Origin: Flammeovirgaceae bacterium
GTDB taxonomy: Bacteria > Bacteroidota > Bacteroidia > Cytophagales > Cyclobacteriaceae
Reading direction: 5' to 3'
Assembly (NCBI GenBank): GCA_027487845.1
Contig: JAIYCV010000026.1
Coordinates: 62,001 to 126,000, forward strand
Length of the DNA: 64,000 nt
Under the pieces are notes generated by a model, which had not been told where the DNA came from, did not search any database, and saw only the letters and a program-made list of their open reading frames with translations. Of the stretch, positions 1,128 to 27,575 are shown piece after piece (within the stretch, counting starts at the first letter, position 1; each line of letters begins with the position of its first letter). A program made the position numbers and the translations under genes.

Positions 1128-2654
1128 ATGAAATTTTTTTTTTCACTGCCCTTCTTTCTTTTTGTTATAAATCTAGGCGTAAGCCAACACTTAGTATTTC
1201 CTGAAAATAAAGATAGGATTTCCGTATCAGAAGGAGAAACGCAGGTTTTTAAAATTGTTTCTAACGATGGGTCTATTCCCACTGGGTTTTCTTTAGAGGG
1301 CGCGGAGGGCCTTGGCATTAAGCTAGATAGCCTCGGAAATTTTTCGTGGAACCCGCCCTACGATTTGGTGACGCGTTTGGAGACTCCCAGAGAAATTAAT
1401 GTGATTTTTCAAGCAGACTGGGCAAATGGTCATAAGGTTCGGCAACCGATCACGTTTATTGTTGCTCACAAAAATCGTCCGCCAAGCGCAGATGATTTGC
1501 CCGTTTTTTATGTTCGGCAATCGACCGTGAACAATTATCAAATTTCTCAAGACTATATTTCCGATCCAGACGGAGATCCTTTGGTATTCAAATCCATTCC
1601 ATCACAAATGCCCGAGGGTGCCATCATTTCTTCGTTGGGGCAAATTAGTTGGAATCCTTCTCGTTCTCAATTCAACCAATTAAAGAATAATCCGATCACC
1701 ATCGAGTTCATTGTTCAGGATCAGCCAGAGAAGGCGGAAACAAAAGGGAAAATAAAAATAGCACAAACACAATTGGATCTGCCTCCTGAGATACTATCGG
1801 TGCCTGGCGACAGTTCTTTTACCATTAAAGAGGACCAATTGATTAATCTGAAATTATATTTTTCTGACCCTAATGGAGATGAGAACATATCAGCAGTTGG
1901 TTTTATCTCCTCCGACTCGCGAGTTCCAAAAACAAGCTTAAAAGAAAACACCCTGGTGCAAGCAGAATTCACATGGACGCCAGGGTATGCATTTGTGGAC
2001 GAAGCAGCCAAGTTCAAAAGCATCGAAATCCTGTTTTTCGTACTCGATAAATCAAACAATCGGGTTCAGAAAAAAATAATTATCACTGTGTTGGATGCCG
2101 AAAATCTAGATGAAAAAGACAAAATGCTGTTCGAGAAATATAAGAACTCGCTTGTCCAAACAAAAGAGCTGATTGACAAACTGGCAGTAAATCATGACTT
2201 GTTGAACAAAGCCTACAAAAAAGCAAAAAAAGGAAAACGCAACCGCTCTATTTTAAATGCTGGTTTGGGAGCTACTACCGGATTGTCGCCAGTTGTATTA
2301 GAAACAAACGAATCGAAAGTTGTTTCAGCACTGGGTGGAACGGCCACATTAACCCTAGGAACACTGGAGGCTACCGAAGTGCTGGGTAAATCAAAATCTG
2401 ACATTTTAGATAAACAAAAAATCAATATCGAAATAAGCAATATGGCACAACTTGAAGGCGATAACTTTGCCCGAAAGTATGCGCTCAAATCAGCCAGAAG
2501 GAATAAAGAATTTGACTTGGATCGCGATAAGCTACTGCCCATTATCAACCATCAGAAGCTGGTATTGCTGGAGTTGGATGCCAGTAGAATAACGAACAAA
2601 AAGCCTTCCACTAAAGAGTTAAAAAAGACCTTTACTGATTTTAGCGAAGAGTGA
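1128..2654 (+). CDS. Secreted protein with three Ig/cadherin-like domains and a coiled-coil C-terminal part
   Basis: 508 aa, family not recognised by name. Residues 1-19 form a signal peptide (FFFSLPFFLFVINLGVSQ). Three beta-rich domains of ~100 aa follow (about 20-115, 120-215, 220-325). Each contains a W-x-P motif (SWNPP, SWNPS, TWTPG), and the second and third carry SDP(D/N)GD-type calcium/cadherin-like motifs. From ~330 the protein becomes charged and helical, with a lysine-rich stretch (KAYKKAKKGKRNR), then a Gly/Thr/Leu-rich stretch (~370-410), then another charged helical region. Inference: an exported structural or adhesion-related protein. It stands alone and is followed by tRNA-Ser. 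No catalytic motif was seen. Confidence 0.75.
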   Translation: MKFFFSLPFFLFVINLGVSQHLVFPENKDRISVSEGETQVFKIVSNDGSIPTGFSLEGAEGLGIKLDSLGNFSWNPPYDLVTRLETPREINVIFQADWANGHKVRQPITFIVAHKNRPPSADDLPVFYVRQSTVNNYQISQDYISDPDGDPLVFKSIPSQMPEGAIISSLGQISWNPSRSQFNQLKNNPITIEFIVQDQPEKAETKGKIKIAQTQLDLPPEILSVPGDSSFTIKEDQLINLKLYFSDPNGDENISAVGFISSDSRVPKTSLKENTLVQAEFTWTPGYAFVDEAAKFKSIEILFFVLDKSNNRVQKKIIITVLDAENLDEKDKMLFEKYKNSLVQTKELIDKLAVNHDLLNKAYKKAKKGKRNRSILNAGLGATTGLSPVVLETNESKVVSALGGTATLTLGTLEATEVLGKSKSDILDKQKINIEISNMAQLEGDNFARKYALKSARRNKEFDLDRDKLLPIINHQKLVLLELDASRITNKKPSTKELKKTFTDFSEE

Positions 2655-2679
2655 TCTGATAAAATTTAGCAAGCTTGCA

Positions 2680-2710
2680 TTTGTACGGAATGATTTAAGG
2701 ATTAGTTTTG
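2680..2710 (+). promoter_or_regulatory. Promoter of tRNA-Ser
   Basis: TTTG at 2680-2683, a 19-bp spacer and TAGTTTTG at 2703-2710 match the primary sigma factor consensus of Bacteroidota (-33 TTTG, -7 TAnnTTTG). The predicted start near 2716 lies about 18 nt before the mature tRNA. Confidence 0.75.
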
Positions 2711-2734
2711 CACTCCGAAACGACCAAAATACAC

Positions 2735-2819
2735 AGAGGAGTGGCAGAGCGGTCGAACGCGGCGGTCTTGAAAACCGTTGTACCGTAAGGTACCGGGGGT
2801 TCGAATCCCTCCTCCTCTG
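2735..2819 (+). tRNA. tRNA-Ser (anticodon UGA)
   Basis: An 85-nt class II tRNA. The acceptor stem AGAGGAG (2735-2741) pairs fully with CTCCTCT (2812-2818). The anticodon loop CTTGAAA (2767-2773) carries TGA. A long variable arm is present, and the T loop is TTCGAAT (2800-2806). The discriminator is G at 2819, and CCA is not encoded. Reads UCA and probably UCG codons. Confidence 0.97.
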
Positions 2820-2840
2820 CTGATCCCAGATCAAAAAATT

Positions 2841-2874
2841 AAAAGCCCCAATTCCTGATGAATTAGGGCTTTTT
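2841..2874 (+). terminator. Rho-independent terminator after tRNA-Ser
   Basis: The hairpin AAAAGCCC-c-AATTC / GAATT-a-GGGCTTTT has a 5-nt loop and one C/A mismatch and ends in a T run, starting 22 nt after the tRNA. Confidence 0.85.
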
Positions 2875-3092
2875 GGCTTTTCAGGCCTGTTGGTGTCAAG
2901 TAATTTAACATTTTTCTTTGGCTAATTCCTAGGTAAACCACTCGTTCAAACAGTAAAAAAAATAAGACCAAAGCAGCTTTCGCGCGAAAACTATTTTAAT
3001 ATTTATACATAACGGTGGGTGGCTGACGAGCCCCCAGCTGCCGTATAACTCTTTTCAGAAATTATATAACTCCGTTTTCCTTTCATCATAGT
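2875..3092. other. Intergenic region without a recognised gene
   Basis: This stretch between the tRNA terminator and the HMA/MauE promoter has no convincing reading frame. A G/C-rich self-complementary patch occurs around 3010-3045 in otherwise AT-rich DNA. No known RNA family was recognised. Confidence 0.4.
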
Positions 3093-10135: not shown

Positions 10136-10912
10136 ATGAAAAAAATTGTTCTTCTATCATTTATCACTGTAATCTCCTTTTCCTCTTTTGCAAAAAATCA
10201 AAAACCTGAATTTTATTCGCTTATCGTTTACAGAATCAAAAACACCAGCCAAGCAGAAAAAGTAGATCAATATCTAAAGCAAGCTTACCTGCCCGCGTTG
10301 CATCGGTTGGGTAAGAAAAACATTGGTGTTTTTAAACCGGTAGCGTCAGACACATCGGCTTTCGGAAGAGTAATTTATGTGCTTACTTCATTTAAGTCGT
10401 TAGATGAATTTCAGCAAATCACAGCCAAGCTCACGCAAGATGCGCAACTGTTTGCGGATGGTGCTGCCTACCTCAACTCAAAATACAATGAAGCTCCTTA
10501 CGACAGGATGGAAACAATACTTATGCGCGCTTTCGCAAACATGCCAGCTATGGAGGCAACACCATTAACGGGCGAAAGAAAAGATCGTGTTTATGAATTG
10601 CGCAGCTACGAAGGGCCTACCGAAAAATTATATCAAAGCAAAGTAAAGATGTTTAACACGGGCGATGAGATTGGGCTATTCAAACGACTTGGATTCAATG
10701 CTGTCTTTTATGCTGAAGTACTTGCCGGAAGCAAAATGCCCAATTTAGTTTACATGACTACCTTTGATAATCGTGCGTCTCGCGATGAGCATTGGAAAGC
10801 GTTTGTTGCCGACCCGCAATGGAAAAACCTTATTACCATCGAAGAATATAAAAACACCGTTTCGAAAGCGGATATCTGGCTTCTCTACCCTACGGATTAT
10901 TCCGATTATTAA
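10136..10912 (+). CDS. NIPSNAP family protein, exported
   Basis: 258 aa with a signal peptide (KKIVLLSFITVISFSSFA). It has two ferredoxin-like halves; the second carries the NIPSNAP signature (YELRSYEGPTEKLYQSK, GLFKRLGFNAVFYAEVLAG, DEHWKAFVADPQWKNL). The biochemical role is unknown in bacteria; homologues are often exported in Bacteroidota. A 6-bp-arm hairpin (AGTGGC-TTTC-GCCACT, 10059-10074) lies in the divergent region shared with the S9 peptidase. Confidence 0.85.
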   Translation: MKKIVLLSFITVISFSSFAKNQKPEFYSLIVYRIKNTSQAEKVDQYLKQAYLPALHRLGKKNIGVFKPVASDTSAFGRVIYVLTSFKSLDEFQQITAKLTQDAQLFADGAAYLNSKYNEAPYDRMETILMRAFANMPAMEATPLTGERKDRVYELRSYEGPTEKLYQSKVKMFNTGDEIGLFKRLGFNAVFYAEVLAGSKMPNLVYMTTFDNRASRDEHWKAFVADPQWKNLITIEEYKNTVSKADIWLLYPTDYSDY

Positions 10913-11009
10913 TTTTTAACTCCGATTCATCTATTCCGGGAACCCTAAAAGAAAGGGAGACATCTTCTTTGCCCTAATCTTAGCTTTTTTGAAAGGCTAA
11001 AACATTTAA

Positions 11010-11040
11010 TTTGAGTTGTTTAAAATAAATTTTAGATTTG
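11010..11040 (+). promoter_or_regulatory. Promoter of the TonB-dependent receptor gene
   Basis: TTTG at 11010-11013, a 19-bp spacer, and TAGATTTG at 11033-11040 match the consensus seen at both tRNA genes. The predicted start near 11046 leaves almost no 5' leader before the ATG at 11051. Confidence 0.7.
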
Positions 11041-11052
11041 TCTAAAATTTAT
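11025..11052. promoter_or_regulatory. Perfect 28-bp palindrome over the -7 element and start codon (putative operator)
   Basis: The left arm ATAAATTTTAGA (11025-11036), spacer TTTG and right arm TCTAAAATTTAT (11041-11052) are perfectly complementary over 12 bp. The palindrome covers the -7 element, the predicted transcription start and the AT of the start codon. The core TTTAG-N6-CTAAA resembles the layout of DtxR/MntR-family operators (inference). It should act as a repressor site. Confidence 0.65.
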
Positions 11053-13507
11053 GAGAGCCAGACTTTTATCTTTTGCCTGTTTTCTCTTCGGAGCTTTCTC
11101 TTCAATCGGCCAAGACCGGGGAATAACCGGTATTTTGCTTGATTTGGAAACAAAGGAGCCTGTTAGTTATGGTAATCTTAGATTATTGAACTCCAAAACA
11201 GGCACCTCAACCAAAGCGGATGGGAGCTTTAAACTTGTTCTTCCAAAAGCCGAGAAGCACCGCCTCGTTATTTCTAGTTTGGGATATAAAACCGATACCT
11301 TGGCAATTGAGCCATCGGTTGAGCAATACAGTCTCTACCTGACACCAATTGTTAGCACGCTAAATGACGTAGTTGTTACTGGGGTAAGTAAAAGCATTTC
11401 CGCTGATGAAAATCCATTAAGTGTTCAAAGCATTAGCTATAGAAAAATAGAACAAACTGTTGAGAGCAATATCATTGACATTTTGACAAAGAACATGCCT
11501 GGGCTTGCCTCATTAAAAACAGGGCCAAACATTTCAAAACCATTTATCCGTGGATTAGGATACAATCGCGTGTTAACACTTTATGATGGGGTGCGACAAG
11601 AAGGCCAACAATGGGGCGATGAGCATGGCATAGAAGTAGATCCTTATTCCATTGAAAGGGCCGAAGTGATCAAAGGCCCTGCAAGCCTAACCTATGGCTC
11701 AGATGCCCTAGCCGGAGTGGTAAGTTTATTCCCCTACCTACCAAAGGAAAAAGATAGTAAAGTGCATGGTAAAATTATTTCCGAGTACCAAAGCAACAAT
11801 GGACTCATTGGAAATGGGGTGCAGATTGGATACAGCAATAAAAACTGGCTGTGGATTTTTCGCAGTTCACTGAGGCGCGCAAAAAATTATTCCAATTCGG
11901 TTGACGGAAGGGTATACAATACTGGTTTTAATGAGCAAAATTTTTCCGGATCCATCGGCTATACTACCGACAAGGGAAAATCAACTGTCCATTTTACTTA
12001 CTACGATAACACCCAAGGCATACCAGATGGCAGTAGGGACTCATTAACACGAAAGTTTACAAAGCAGATAGCTGAAGGAGCTCTCGATGATATCAAGAAT
12101 CGTCCAGTGGTTAAAGAGTCTGAGTTAAACTCATATCAGCTAAGTCCGCTTCATCAATCGATCAATCATATTCGTCTTTACGCTACTAATCATTATCAGA
12201 TTGGTAAAGGTGATATTGACTTTATGGTAGCGGGCTCACAAAATGTGAGGAAAGAATTTACACACCCAACAGCTCCCCTTCAACCGGGTTTAAACATCAC
12301 ACTTCAATCGTTGAACTACCGAATTTTATATAATGCACCAACTTTTCTCAATCTCGAAAATTCGTTTGGTATAAATGGGATGATTCAAAAAAACAAAACT
12401 GATAATGCCACCGACTTTCCTATTCCAGATTATAATCTTACCGATGGCAGTTTCTTTTTCCAATCGCATTGGAAAAAGAAAAACTGGTCGGTGTTAAGTG
12501 GAATATCATTTGACATCCGAAATCTTATTACACACGACCTTTTTGCAAAACAAAACTCAATTACTGGCTTTAATGAAAAGGTGCTTCCAAGTGAACCTAA
12601 TGCTAACTTAGTGCACGGTGCATTAAATCAAACTTTTAGCGGTACTTCTTTCAATATCGGAATAGCAAACCAGCTTTCAGATCATTTAATTTTAAAAGCA
12701 AATGTTGGCAGGGGATACAGGGCCCCTTCAATTTCAGAAATAGCAAGCAACGGGCTTGACCCTGGCGCACGTATCGTTTATGTAGGTAACAAAAATTTTG
12801 TTCCAGAAACCAATCTGCAGGTTGATCTCTCACTATCACTCAAACAGAAATCTTTTTTCACGTCACTCAGCATCTTCAGCAACACCATTCAAAATTATAT
12901 CCACCTTGCCCAAGTGGTAGATGCAACGGGGAAGCCCCTTGAACTAGTGCAAGGAAGCAGAACCTTTCAATATCAACAGGCATCTGCACACCTATTTGGA
13001 TTAGAAGTTACTGTCAGTCTAACTCCAGAAGCAATCAAAGGATTTACGTGGACTAATCAATTAGCCTTGGTATATGGAAACAACACAAAAAGGGAATTCG
13101 AAAATACCGGCCGTCTCGGCCAATACCTGCCATTCATTCCTCCGCCAAGAGCAACAAGTCAGTTGACTTATGAGATAAAGCCAAAAATCAGTTGGATTAA
13201 AAGTATCAATCTTTCAACTGAAGTAGAACACGCTGCCACTCAAAATAGGTATTTAGCGCTATACGAAACCGAAACCCAAACAACAGGTTTTACATTGTTC
13301 AACGTTGGCGCAACTACAGAAATTCCGTTAGCTAAGAACAGAGCAATCTATTTCCAACTTCAACTCAACAATGTTTTTGATGTTGCTTATCAATCTAACT
13401 TGAGTCGGCTAAAATATTTTGAATACTACACACAATCGCCCACCGACCGATTCGGTATCTACAATATGGGGCGTAATCTCAGCTTCAAAATCAGGTACTC
13501 GTATTAA
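11051..13507 (+). CDS. TonB-dependent outer-membrane receptor
   Basis: 818 aa. A signal peptide (RARLLSFACFLFGAFSSIGQ) is followed by a carboxypeptidase-D-like domain (~22-105; GILLDLETKEPVSYGNL, VISSLGYKTDTL), a plug (~105-225) and a 22-strand-type barrel ending in an aromatic strand (NLSFKIRYSY). The plug has IRGLGYNRVLTLYDGVRQEG, WGDEHGIEVDP and ERAEVIKGPASLTYGSDALAG. The last stretch resembles receptors for metals or metal chelates (ZnuD-like; family inference). Known: TonB-driven import of large or scarce ligands. The palindromic operator over its promoter fits metal-responsive repression. No SusD partner is present. Confidence 0.9.
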   Translation: MRARLLSFACFLFGAFSSIGQDRGITGILLDLETKEPVSYGNLRLLNSKTGTSTKADGSFKLVLPKAEKHRLVISSLGYKTDTLAIEPSVEQYSLYLTPIVSTLNDVVVTGVSKSISADENPLSVQSISYRKIEQTVESNIIDILTKNMPGLASLKTGPNISKPFIRGLGYNRVLTLYDGVRQEGQQWGDEHGIEVDPYSIERAEVIKGPASLTYGSDALAGVVSLFPYLPKEKDSKVHGKIISEYQSNNGLIGNGVQIGYSNKNWLWIFRSSLRRAKNYSNSVDGRVYNTGFNEQNFSGSIGYTTDKGKSTVHFTYYDNTQGIPDGSRDSLTRKFTKQIAEGALDDIKNRPVVKESELNSYQLSPLHQSINHIRLYATNHYQIGKGDIDFMVAGSQNVRKEFTHPTAPLQPGLNITLQSLNYRILYNAPTFLNLENSFGINGMIQKNKTDNATDFPIPDYNLTDGSFFFQSHWKKKNWSVLSGISFDIRNLITHDLFAKQNSITGFNEKVLPSEPNANLVHGALNQTFSGTSFNIGIANQLSDHLILKANVGRGYRAPSISEIASNGLDPGARIVYVGNKNFVPETNLQVDLSLSLKQKSFFTSLSIFSNTIQNYIHLAQVVDATGKPLELVQGSRTFQYQQASAHLFGLEVTVSLTPEAIKGFTWTNQLALVYGNNTKREFENTGRLGQYLPFIPPPRATSQLTYEIKPKISWIKSINLSTEVEHAATQNRYLALYETETQTTGFTLFNVGATTEIPLAKNRAIYFQLQLNNVFDVAYQSNLSRLKYFEYYTQSPTDRFGIYNMGRNLSFKIRYSY

Positions 13508-24714: not shown

Positions 24715-27270
24715 ATGGCAAATATGGAAGCAAAATTCTCTAACCGGGTTAAAGAGGTAATTTCTCTGAGCCGCGAAGAAGCACTAAGGTTAGGGCATGA
24801 TTACATTGGCACTGAACACTTATTATTAGGCATGATTCGCGAAGGCGAAGGCGTGGCCGTAGCAGTGCTGAAGAAGCTGGGTGTGCCCTTAGATGATCTT
24901 CGAGCGGAAATAGAAAAAATTTCTAAAGGAACCGCTACTTTTCAAATCAAGAACTTGGCGAACATTCCGCTCACACGTGCTTCTGAAAAAGTATTAAAGA
25001 TCACTTACCTTGAAGCTAAAATTTTTAAGGCACAATTGATCGGAACCGAACATTTGCTGCTTTCTATCCTTCGCGACCCCGATAACTTGGCAACTCAGTT
25101 GCTTAATAAGTTTGACGTAGCGTACGATGTGGTGAAAGAAATGTTAGAGTACCAGGATAAACAACCCATGGCATCGTCTGACACTGAAGATCCAGACGAT
25201 GATTCCTCGAAAATGTTTGGTGCCGGAAGTGGTGCCTCTGGCAGCGGCAAGGAAAAGAAGGGCACAGGCGAAAAATCAAGAACACCCGTGCTGGATAATT
25301 TTGGCCGAGACCTAACCAAACTAGCGGAAGACAATAAGCTGGACCCTATAGTGGGGCGTGAAAAAGAAATTGAGCGTGTGGCGCAAATTTTAAGTCGTAG
25401 AAAGAAAAACAATCCCATATTAATTGGAGAACCCGGTGTTGGTAAGACTGCCATTGCAGAAGGGCTTGCCTTACGAATCATACAAAAGAAAGTCTCCAGA
25501 GTACTATTTGGCAAGCGCGTGGTAACCCTTGACCTGGCTTCGTTGGTAGCTGGTACAAAATACCGTGGTCAGTTTGAAGAACGTATGAAAGCCGTCATGA
25601 ATGAGCTGGAGAAATCTGCGGACGTAATACTCTTCATCGATGAACTTCATACAATTGTTGGGGCTGGCGGTGCTTCAGGATCGCTAGATGCCTCTAACAT
25701 GTTTAAGCCTGCATTAGCTCGGGGCGAAATACAATGTATAGGTGCCACCACATTGGATGAATACCGTCAATACATTGAAAAAGATGGTGCATTAGCAAGA
25801 AGATTTCAAGTGGTAATGGTGGATTCAACAACCGTTGATGAAACGATTCAGATCTTGGATAATATCAAAGAAAAATACGAAGACCATCACCATGTAACCT
25901 ACACAAAAGAAGCTATTGACGCCTGCGTAAAGCTTTCTGATCGCTACATAAGCGACCGTTTCTTGCCAGACAAGGCCATTGACGTGTTAGATGAAGCAGG
26001 TGCTCGCGTTCATATCAATAACATTCACGTGCCTGAAGATATTGTGAAGTTTGAAGAGGCGATTGAAGATGTGAAGAAAGAAAAGAACCGCGTGGTGAAA
26101 AGTCAAAAGTATGAAGAGGCCGCGCAGCTTCGTGATAAAGAGAAGAAACTGATCGAGCAACTTGATTTGGCAAAAACGCGCTGGGAAGAGAAAACCCGGA
26201 CGGAAAAATACACGGTAACAGAAGACAACGTGGCAGATGTTGTTGGAATGATGACGGGCATACCCGCTAATCGCATCGCACAGAAGGAAAGTAATAAGTT
26301 ACTGGGCATGGGCGAATCACTGAGCGGTAAAGTGGTAGGACAAGAAGAGGCTATTAAGAAATTAACAAAAGCTATCCAACGCACACGCGTTGGCTTGAAA
26401 GATCCTAAAAAGCCGATCGGCTCTTTTATTTTCCTTGGGCCTACAGGAGTGGGTAAAACAGAACTAGCCAAAGTTCTGGCAACTTATCTTTTTGACAAAG
26501 AAGACACGTTGGTTCGCATCGACATGAGCGAATATATGGAAAAGTTCTCTGTGTCGCGTCTCGTAGGAGCACCTCCAGGATATGTGGGCTATGAAGAAGG
26601 TGGACAGCTTACTGAAAAAGTGAGAAGAAAACCATATAGTGTTGTGTTGTTGGATGAGATTGAGAAAGCACATCCCGATGTGTTCAACATCCTTCTTCAA
26701 GTATTGGATGACGGAATATTAACAGATGGACTTGGAAGAAGAGTTGATTTCAGAAATACAATCATAATAATGACATCTAACATTGGTGTTCGTGACTTGA
26801 AGGATTTTGGCAGCGGAATTGGATTTGCAAGCAAAGCAAAACAAGAAAATGTGGAAGAGAACATGAGAAGCACTATACAAAGTGCTTTAAAACGTGCCTT
26901 TTCTCCAGAATTCTTGAATCGGCTAGACGATGTGATTGTATTCAACTCATTAAAACGAGAAGATATCCATAAGATCATAGATCTTTCGTTAGGTAAACTT
27001 TTTGTGCGCATCACCCAACTTGGTTACACCGTTGAGTTGACTGAAAAAGCAAAAGACTTCTTGGCAGAAAAAGGGTATGATCAACAATTTGGTGCTCGTC
27101 CGTTAAACAGAGCTATCCAAAAATACCTAGAAGATCCGATTGCAGAAGAAATTTTGAAAGGTGAAATAGAACAAGGGGGAACACTTCTTGCGGATTATCC
27201 AGGTGAAGGAGATCTTATCACTATTAAATTGAAAAAAGCAAAAGAAAAGAAGGAGAAGAAAACGGAGTAA
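24715..27270 (+). CDS. clpC: ATP-dependent Clp protease ATP-binding subunit ClpC
   Basis: About 851 aa from ATG 24715 (ATG 24724 is also possible). It has two Clp N-terminal repeats (~1-150), AAA-1 with Walker A GEPGVGKT and Walker B VILFIDE, a UVR motif ([14 protein letters not shown]), and AAA-2 with GPTGVGKT and [14 protein letters not shown], then a D2-small domain. The UVR motif and N repeats mark ClpC rather than ClpA or ClpB. Known: it unfolds substrates for ClpP and works with adaptors in protein quality control. A strong terminator follows. Confidence 0.95.
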
Positions 27271-27282
27271 GGTTATTCAAAT

Positions 27283-27318
27283 AAAAAGGCCTGAGCTTTT
27301 CAAAGTTCAGGCCTTTCT
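27283..27318 (+). terminator. Rho-independent terminator of clpC
   Basis: AAAGGCCTGA (27285-27294) pairs with TCAGGCCTTT (27307-27316); the stem continues inward through GCTTT/AAAGT. A short T-rich tail follows. Confidence 0.85.
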
Positions 27319-27575
27319 ATTTGATTCAGTGTGATTCAACTTGCCGTAAAAACTGAAAATAAATTTCTTTTCACTATCTATAAAGAATAGAATCGCTGGT
27401 GCAATAATTTCAACACAAGGCAGGTTGGTCTGGCCATTTCATTTCACCTCGAGATCTATCTTTGACCCCAATTATGCAGGAGGATTTTGCAACTCATTTT
27501 AAATGTTTATAATATGCGCTTCATTCGAAAATAGCCTCTAGCGATGCACTTGACTTTCAAACAAATTATCAGCAG
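27319..27575. other. Intergenic region before the OmpR-type regulator
   Basis: This ~257-bp stretch has no reading frame of gene quality. A TATCTTTG (27457-27464) matches the -7 consensus ~110 bp upstream of the regulator start; no matching -33 was found. Confidence 0.4.

Follow-up and report, generated by a model that had tools for sequence, protein, structure and literature searches.

A candidate MntR operator over the start of a TonB-dependent receptor gene points to manganese uptake across the outer membrane of a Flammeovirgaceae bacterium

Introduction

A gene for a TonB-dependent receptor in a Flammeovirgaceae bacterium begins within a long perfect palindrome, which raises the question of which regulator might bind there and which substrate the receptor would import. 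The window (the whole stretch of 64,000 nucleotides that was analysed) had been annotated in a preliminary description, which proposed metal-responsive control of a receptor for a metal or a metal chelate. Our analysis supports this guess, and the most likely metal is manganese. Judged from sequence comparison, the palindrome is most probably the operator of the genome's own MntR-like repressor, a member of the DtxR family that would repress an outer-membrane manganese receptor and mntR-mntH when manganese suffices.

Results

Palindrome, promoter and start codon

The receptor open reading frame (11051..13507, plus strand) starts with an ATG at 11051-11053. Its upstream neighbour, a NIPSNAP gene, ends at 10912, and its downstream neighbour lies on the opposite strand. 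Direct reading, a repeat search and shuffling agreed on an unstranded 12-4-12 palindrome at 11025..11052. The arms ATAAATTTTAGA (11025-11036) and TCTAAAATTTAT (11041-11052) pair without a mismatch around TTTG (11037-11040), and the palindrome ends at the second base of the start codon. The 28-bp symmetry over promoter and start codon was therefore correctly described. Dinucleotide shuffling of the 148-nt region, repeated 2000 times, produced arms of at least 12 bp with a gap of at most 8 nt in three cases. Four such repeats, including this one, are present in the 64-kb window, and none occurred in any of 10 shuffles of it. With four repeats of this kind in the window, so long a palindrome is unusual without being unique, and its length is weak evidence by itself. 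It is raised above chance by its inner 16 bp, TTTAGATTTGTCTAAA (11031..11046, unstranded), which are kept in relatives. In the six same-genus orthologs compared, the symmetry does not extend to the outer 6 bp of the arms, and the conserved unit is hence 16 bp, not the 28 bp that had been treated as one element. Elsewhere in the window, an inverted repeat of 23 nt (27277-27324, 91% complementary, 2-nt gap) lies just 3' of an open reading frame ending at 27270 and is probably a terminator.

The motif TTTG at 11010..11013 (plus strand) is presumably the -33 element of a Bacteroidota-type promoter. After a 19-bp spacer it is followed by TAGATTTG (11033..11040, plus strand), which lies inside the operator and which we take to fit the -7 consensus TAnnTTTG. 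The arrangement TTTG-N19-TAGATTTG, with the -7 element within the operator, recurs in five Pedobacter loci (L165, L167, L174, L178 and L183) of the 14 named loci inspected. In the same-genus orthologs TAnnTTTG is absent at the box, and five of them have TAGACTTG there. The promoter geometry noted earlier is thus present and recurs in Pedobacter, but it is not shared with the closest relatives.

The same operator type at a DtxR-family regulator gene

The genome, which comprises 4.55 Mb and has the window at C33:62001-126000, yielded a single DtxR-family match (C8:52226-52882) and a single Fur-family match. The DtxR-family gene overlaps mntH, an Nramp gene, and TTTAGGGCAATCTAAA is located just upstream of it. 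Of 58 genomes searched for the regulator, 51 gave a match, and the 30 loci returned include that of the own genome. All 30 carry TTTAG-N6-CTAAA without a mismatch, with 11-71 nt between its end and the regulator match, and in 26 the DPGN motif of Nramp (mntH) follows downstream. With a matrix built from the 29 relatives' mntR sites, own site excluded, the site at the receptor scored 23.2 bits and the next best site in the 64-kb window 8.4. The own mntR site scored 18.0 bits, and the maximum in 2 Mb of random sequence matched in composition was 15.8. The earlier comparison of TTTAG-N6-CTAAA with DtxR/MntR-type operators is borne out by this occurrence of the same operator type before the own DtxR-family gene and its 29 copies in relatives.

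The regulator is a protein of 219 amino acid residues. Its helix-turn-helix (PF01325) and dimerisation (PF02742) domains scored above the cut-off, and a FeoA domain forms the C-terminus. An acidic residue in place of Cys102 of DtxR is the mark of manganese-type regulators. In an alignment that does not display the DtxR row itself, the protein shares a Glu at this position with 5zr4, ScaR and SloR, which we take to be manganese regulators and which it resembles in domain make-up and in the acidic metal-site residue. None of the NCBIfam MntR models reached its cut-off for the regulator (equivalog NF047407, 162.9 bits against 350 required), and the name MntR is therefore based on domain make-up, residue and gene pair. 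A winged helix-turn-helix, a metal-binding dimerisation domain, linkage to a manganese transporter and an operator ahead of the regulator gene itself are all present, and the regulator class is very likely the predicted DtxR/MntR one.

Conservation of the operator in front of receptor orthologs

Orthologs of the receptor with 51-54% identity were found in seven of 35 same-genus relatives; the other 28 had no match of at least 50% identity over the receptor's length. Before these orthologs, TTTAGACTTGTCTAAA stands 2-4 nt ahead of the ATG in five and GTTAGGTTAATCTAAA occurs in one, and the seventh (L021) has no convincing box near its start. The preliminary description had made its proposal depend on conservation in close relatives, and the operator is kept in six of the seven same-genus orthologs.

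A scan of public genomes covered the best 80 of 584 candidate loci, 58 of them with at least 42% receptor identity and 22 below. Among these 58 Bacteroidota loci, TTAG-N6-CTAA occurs within 300 nt upstream of the receptor in 42, and two reversed-pattern controls gave 0/58 and 2/58. None of the 58 genes contains the pattern in its opening 300 nt, and it is absent from the 139 kb of receptor coding sequence searched; only one of the 22 loci below 42% identity carries it upstream. In the named receptor loci the box starts 31 to 232 nt upstream. Still within the best 80 of 584, 17 of the 58 loci have the DtxR-family gene in divergent orientation to the receptor and two have it just 3', and mntH adjoins the receptor in 12; in total, mntR or mntH is found beside the receptor in 30 of the 58, one locus having both. 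The 16 of these 58 loci without a near box comprise seven beside mntR or mntH, five with a box at -530 to -656, and four with neither box nor mntR/mntH in reach (L153, L160, L171 and L179). A small His-rich open reading frame follows the distant box in 5/5 cases.

In Spirosoma and Dyadobacter (L154, L159, L169, L186 and L192), the box is separated from the receptor by the gene for this His-rich protein of 98-122 aa (HxHRLxxGRxxxHxHPY-like); the copy in L154 has no Pfam match. Larkinella L171 also contains the His-rich frame upstream of its receptor, and no box was found there. In ten Hymenobacter loci the receptor follows mntH (identified by tblastn), and TTAG-N6-CTAA lies less than 500 nt before the Nramp motif in all ten. 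Genome G047 (5.2 Mb), which groups with Hymenobacter in the receptor tree, contains a single TTTAGRNNNNYCTAAA site. It lies some 35 nt upstream of mntH, which is followed on the same strand by the receptor ortholog.

Genome-wide occurrence of the box and the wider regulon

Counted over whole genomes, the box is not enriched. Up to two mismatches to TTTAGANNNNTCTAAA were found at 501 sites per strand of the own genome against 538 for the reversed control, and TTTAGRNNNNYCTAAA summed over 18 genomes gave 60 sites against 60 for the reversed pattern. As these counts do not exceed the controls, the signal is positional only. The second exact match to TTTAGANNNNTCTAAA in the own genome (L002) lies within a coding frame. 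The seven own-genome sites of TTTAGRNNNNYCTAAA (four in the control) are those at the receptor and mntR, four in frames (L002, L136, L137 and L139) and one in L138. At this last site (G000:C47:64937, L138:3038) the box, the third in this genome to occupy a promoter position, ends 4 nt before a 131-aa open reading frame, beyond which an HMA-domain protein and a further TonB receptor are encoded. The genome search that had been suggested for palindromes near other TonB receptors or metal genes thus recovered mntR and L138, along with the four sites in frames and no enrichment.

Forty regions, mostly around boxes away from mntR, were examined for a wider regulon. A second class of TonB receptors (732-756 aa in 12 complete cases) is encoded directly behind an MntR-type box in L108-L113, L116, L118, L125, L127, L128 and L143, and in L140 the box precedes another TonB receptor. 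In L117, L122, L126 and L134 it stands before an operon for a di-haem oxidoreductase, a Rieske protein and a protein of about 400 aa, for which Pfam, run on L146 only, gave no match. In G031 (L146) this operon is located directly behind the regulator, where others have mntH. In L141 (G044), the gene at 1756-3045 encodes a fusion of an ABC-3 metal permease with a DtxR dimerisation domain, and the box ends 8 nt before its start. G015 (L259) carries an MntR box and a Zur-like box in tandem. Other boxes lie within frames (e.g. L115, L119, L120, L123, L136, L137 and L139) or before genes without an evident metal link (L114 and L144), and these may be due to chance.

Domains and structural relatives of the receptor

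The predicted receptor for Mn(II) or a manganese chelate, a substrate assigned by inference, is a protein of 818 amino acid residues. Domain searches located, all on the plus strand, an N-terminal CarbopepD_reg_2 domain (residues 25-109, 11123..11377), a plug (residues 119-223, 11405..11719) and a beta-barrel (residues 297-773, 11939..13369). PF07715 and PF00593 both exceeded their cut-offs, which places the protein among the TonB-dependent receptors. An AlphaFold2 model on the 62-row alignment A2 (pLDDT 85.9, pTM 0.81) comprises 22 long strands from residue 237 onward by our count; residues 188-190, next to the proposed plug ligands, have a pLDDT below 50.

The closest solved protein is ZnuD both by a 9-row profile and by Foldseek. 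A 62-row profile places ZnuD second to 9gbc, whose match is confined to the N-terminal part. In VIA-align, the haem receptors ChuA (Z 39.9) and ShuA (39.4) and BtuB (39.5) rank slightly higher than ZnuD (38.2), and ZnuD was not retained as the single best structural match. The likeness of a plug segment to ZnuD, recorded previously, reaches beyond the plug, but it is slightly exceeded by that to ChuA, ShuA and BtuB in VIA-align. The ZnuD family model NF038289 scored 59 bits against a cut-off of 950. The best NCBIfam models were those of the haemoglobin/transferrin receptors (TIGR01786, 186.7 bits against 323.75) and of a haem family (172.2 bits against 316.85), both below their cut-offs.

Metal-ligand residues and the Asp570 clade

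According to the accessible part of PMC4557270, the zinc ligands of ZnuD are Asp99, His100, Glu340 and His499. In our HMMER alignment the ZnuD chain numbers equal the published ones plus 14, a relation that we derived ourselves and that fits all four ligands. E191-H192 (codons at 11621..11626, plus strand) align to the Asp99-His100 pair. Glu340 is aligned to T407, with E402 and H405 (12254..12265, plus strand) close by. D570 (12758..12760, plus strand) takes the position of His499, at which most sister receptors sampled have His. The zinc-ligand set of ZnuD is accordingly incomplete, with the plug pair kept as E191-H192 and Asp570 at His499. E191, H192, E402, H405 and D570 are each found in 62/62 rows of A2, an alignment without L179, L162, L181, L197 and L019. 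In 99 rows, positions 191-192 read EH in 94, DH in three and EE in one (L179), with one unreadable.

Among the readable rows with at least 42% identity, position 570 is Asp in 66/66; of the 32 other rows, 30 have His. The His rows are 20 of the 22 named loci below 42% (L225 and L226 have Asp), four at about 35% and six at about 28%. L179 has Asp570 together with Glu192 and Phe405, and the truncated L162, unreadable at residue 570, was set aside. In a tree of 97 rows, excluding L162 and L179, a single branch (SH-aLRT 97, quick method) separates the 67 Asp rows from the others. Being set apart by one branch, they reflect one evolutionary event, and the Fisher value of box versus residue is therefore not independent evidence. 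A box within 700 nt was present in 54 of 68 Asp rows, L021 being counted only through a poor match at -522, and in three of 30 His rows (L025, L026 and L222, the last a poor match). A strict rule equating Asp570 with an MntR box was rejected, since it is broken by L025 and L026 (His with box) and by L225 and L226 (Asp without an MntR-like box). L202 belongs to a contig with the label Methanoregulaceae archaeon; its receptor clusters with one from Bacteroidales, and the contig is probably misbinned.

A Zur-like palindrome at sister receptors

Six His570-type receptors at about 28% identity (L029, L032-L034, L036 and L038) have a TGCAAC-N3-GTTGCA palindrome (or its Y/R variants), upstream in five and across the start codon in L036. 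Within 300 nt, such a box occurs in 6/30 His rows, with L036 in addition, and in 2/68 Asp rows (L155 and L183); one of the 22 loci below 42% identity among the best 80 of 584 has it. The box TGCAAYNNNRTTGCA is absent within 300 nt of the window receptor. The palindrome also precedes genes for CobW-type (COG0523) GTPases (L249 and L251) and a MerC gene (L254), from which it is read as a Zur site and likely represents a Zur operator of Bacteroidota. Other Zur-like boxes stand before genes without an evident zinc link. As only some sister receptors carry one, the box was dismissed as a mark of the whole His570 group.

Discussion

The palindrome in the promoter matches the site before the relatives' manganese-type repressor gene, and for this reason the receptor probably imports manganese when it is scarce. 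With sufficient Mn(II), dimeric MntR would occupy 11031-11046, over the -7 element and the start site, and shut the promoter. At low manganese the repressor would leave the DNA and allow transcription of the receptor alongside mntR-mntH. Since the box ends 4 nt before the ATG, we infer that the receptor mRNA would be almost leaderless. Whether free or chelated, Mn(II) would then pass the outer membrane through the receptor and the inner membrane through MntH.

The same operator might instead serve a DtxR/IdeR-like regulator that senses Fe(II), with a ferric chelate or haem as the cargo. The higher VIA-align scores of ChuA, BtuB and ShuA and the haemoglobin/transferrin and haem models at the head of the NCBIfam matches, both below their cut-offs, are compatible with iron, and Nramp proteins are able to carry iron too. 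We nevertheless consider this unlikely, as the regulator, whose gene overlaps mntH, carries Glu at the position of Cys102 in DtxR, mntH adjoins a fair share of the receptor genes, and the genome has a Fur-family gene besides, whichever metal that one senses. Improbable to a still higher degree is a ZnuD-like zinc receptor that happens to be controlled by MntR. The retained plug pair, the rank of ZnuD in the profile and Foldseek searches and the MntR-like box at the His570-type receptors L025 and L026 would fit it, but the clade uniformly has Asp where ZnuD and nearly all other rows have His, and the window receptor lacks the Zur-like box.

That the palindrome spans the start codon, and that the window holds four repeats of this kind, could also suggest an RNA hairpin that masks the start codon or terminates transcription, or a chance AT-rich repeat. 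Conservation is confined to the 16-bp core and does not extend to the outer arms, its distance to the start varies (11-71 nt at the regulator, 31 to 232 nt at the receptors), no terminator-like site was found in 10900-11100, and a transcript from the predicted promoter would contain just the right arm. These readings were rejected on core-only conservation, varying distance and the lack of a terminator-like site, and we regard them as scarcely credible.

With MntR control as the preferred reading, the exchange at position 570 can be interpreted further. Asp in place of His would make the site richer in oxygen ligands and thereby favour Mn(II) over Zn(II). A widespread manganese receptor clade of Bacteroidota, including the window receptor, may thus have arisen from ZnuD-like zinc stock by one His-to-Asp change at residue 570, with MntR control replacing a Zur-like box, and the letter at residue 570 together with the promoter box would predict the metal. 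We offer this scenario tentatively, at slightly under an even chance.

Control of TonB receptors by MntR is already known from Stenotrophomonas maltophilia, where, as far as the accessible text of PMC13217887 goes, the receptor of the TBDR-pTFP locus is under MntR. As predicted here, that receptor lies under MntR with a box in the promoter region and close to mntR/mntH, the latter likeness being seen in the relatives' loci (30/58 among the best 80 of 584). It differs, in the same portion of that source, by a 25-bp MntR box, a CQNC plug motif and a thioredoxin-fold partner gene behind the receptor; the window receptor has no CQNC motif, its only Cys is residue 10, and the gene behind it has the opposite orientation. 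MnoT of Burkholderia thailandensis, likened to the window receptor by description alone and not by sequence, is presented in the available part of PMC8602904 as a TonB-dependent outer-membrane Mn(II) transporter induced at low manganese, and it partners TseM, a secreted manganese binder of a type VI system. Neisseria ZnuD (PDB 4rdr) shares the aligned acidic-His pair of the plug, but it is a zinc receptor with His499, whereas the window receptor has Asp570 and no Zur-like box at its promoter. Among the literature matches listed, none links MntR to a TonB receptor in Bacteroidota; subscription papers and regulon databases were beyond reach, and an earlier prediction is possible. As far as the searched literature shows, manganese uptake across the outer membrane of Bacteroidota is undescribed.

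The combination of an operator, a regulator, a receptor clade and a single residue makes the cargo of a large group of TonB receptors directly testable, and the clade is found in culturable genera, i.e. Pedobacter, Mucilaginibacter, Hymenobacter, Spirosoma and Chitinophaga.
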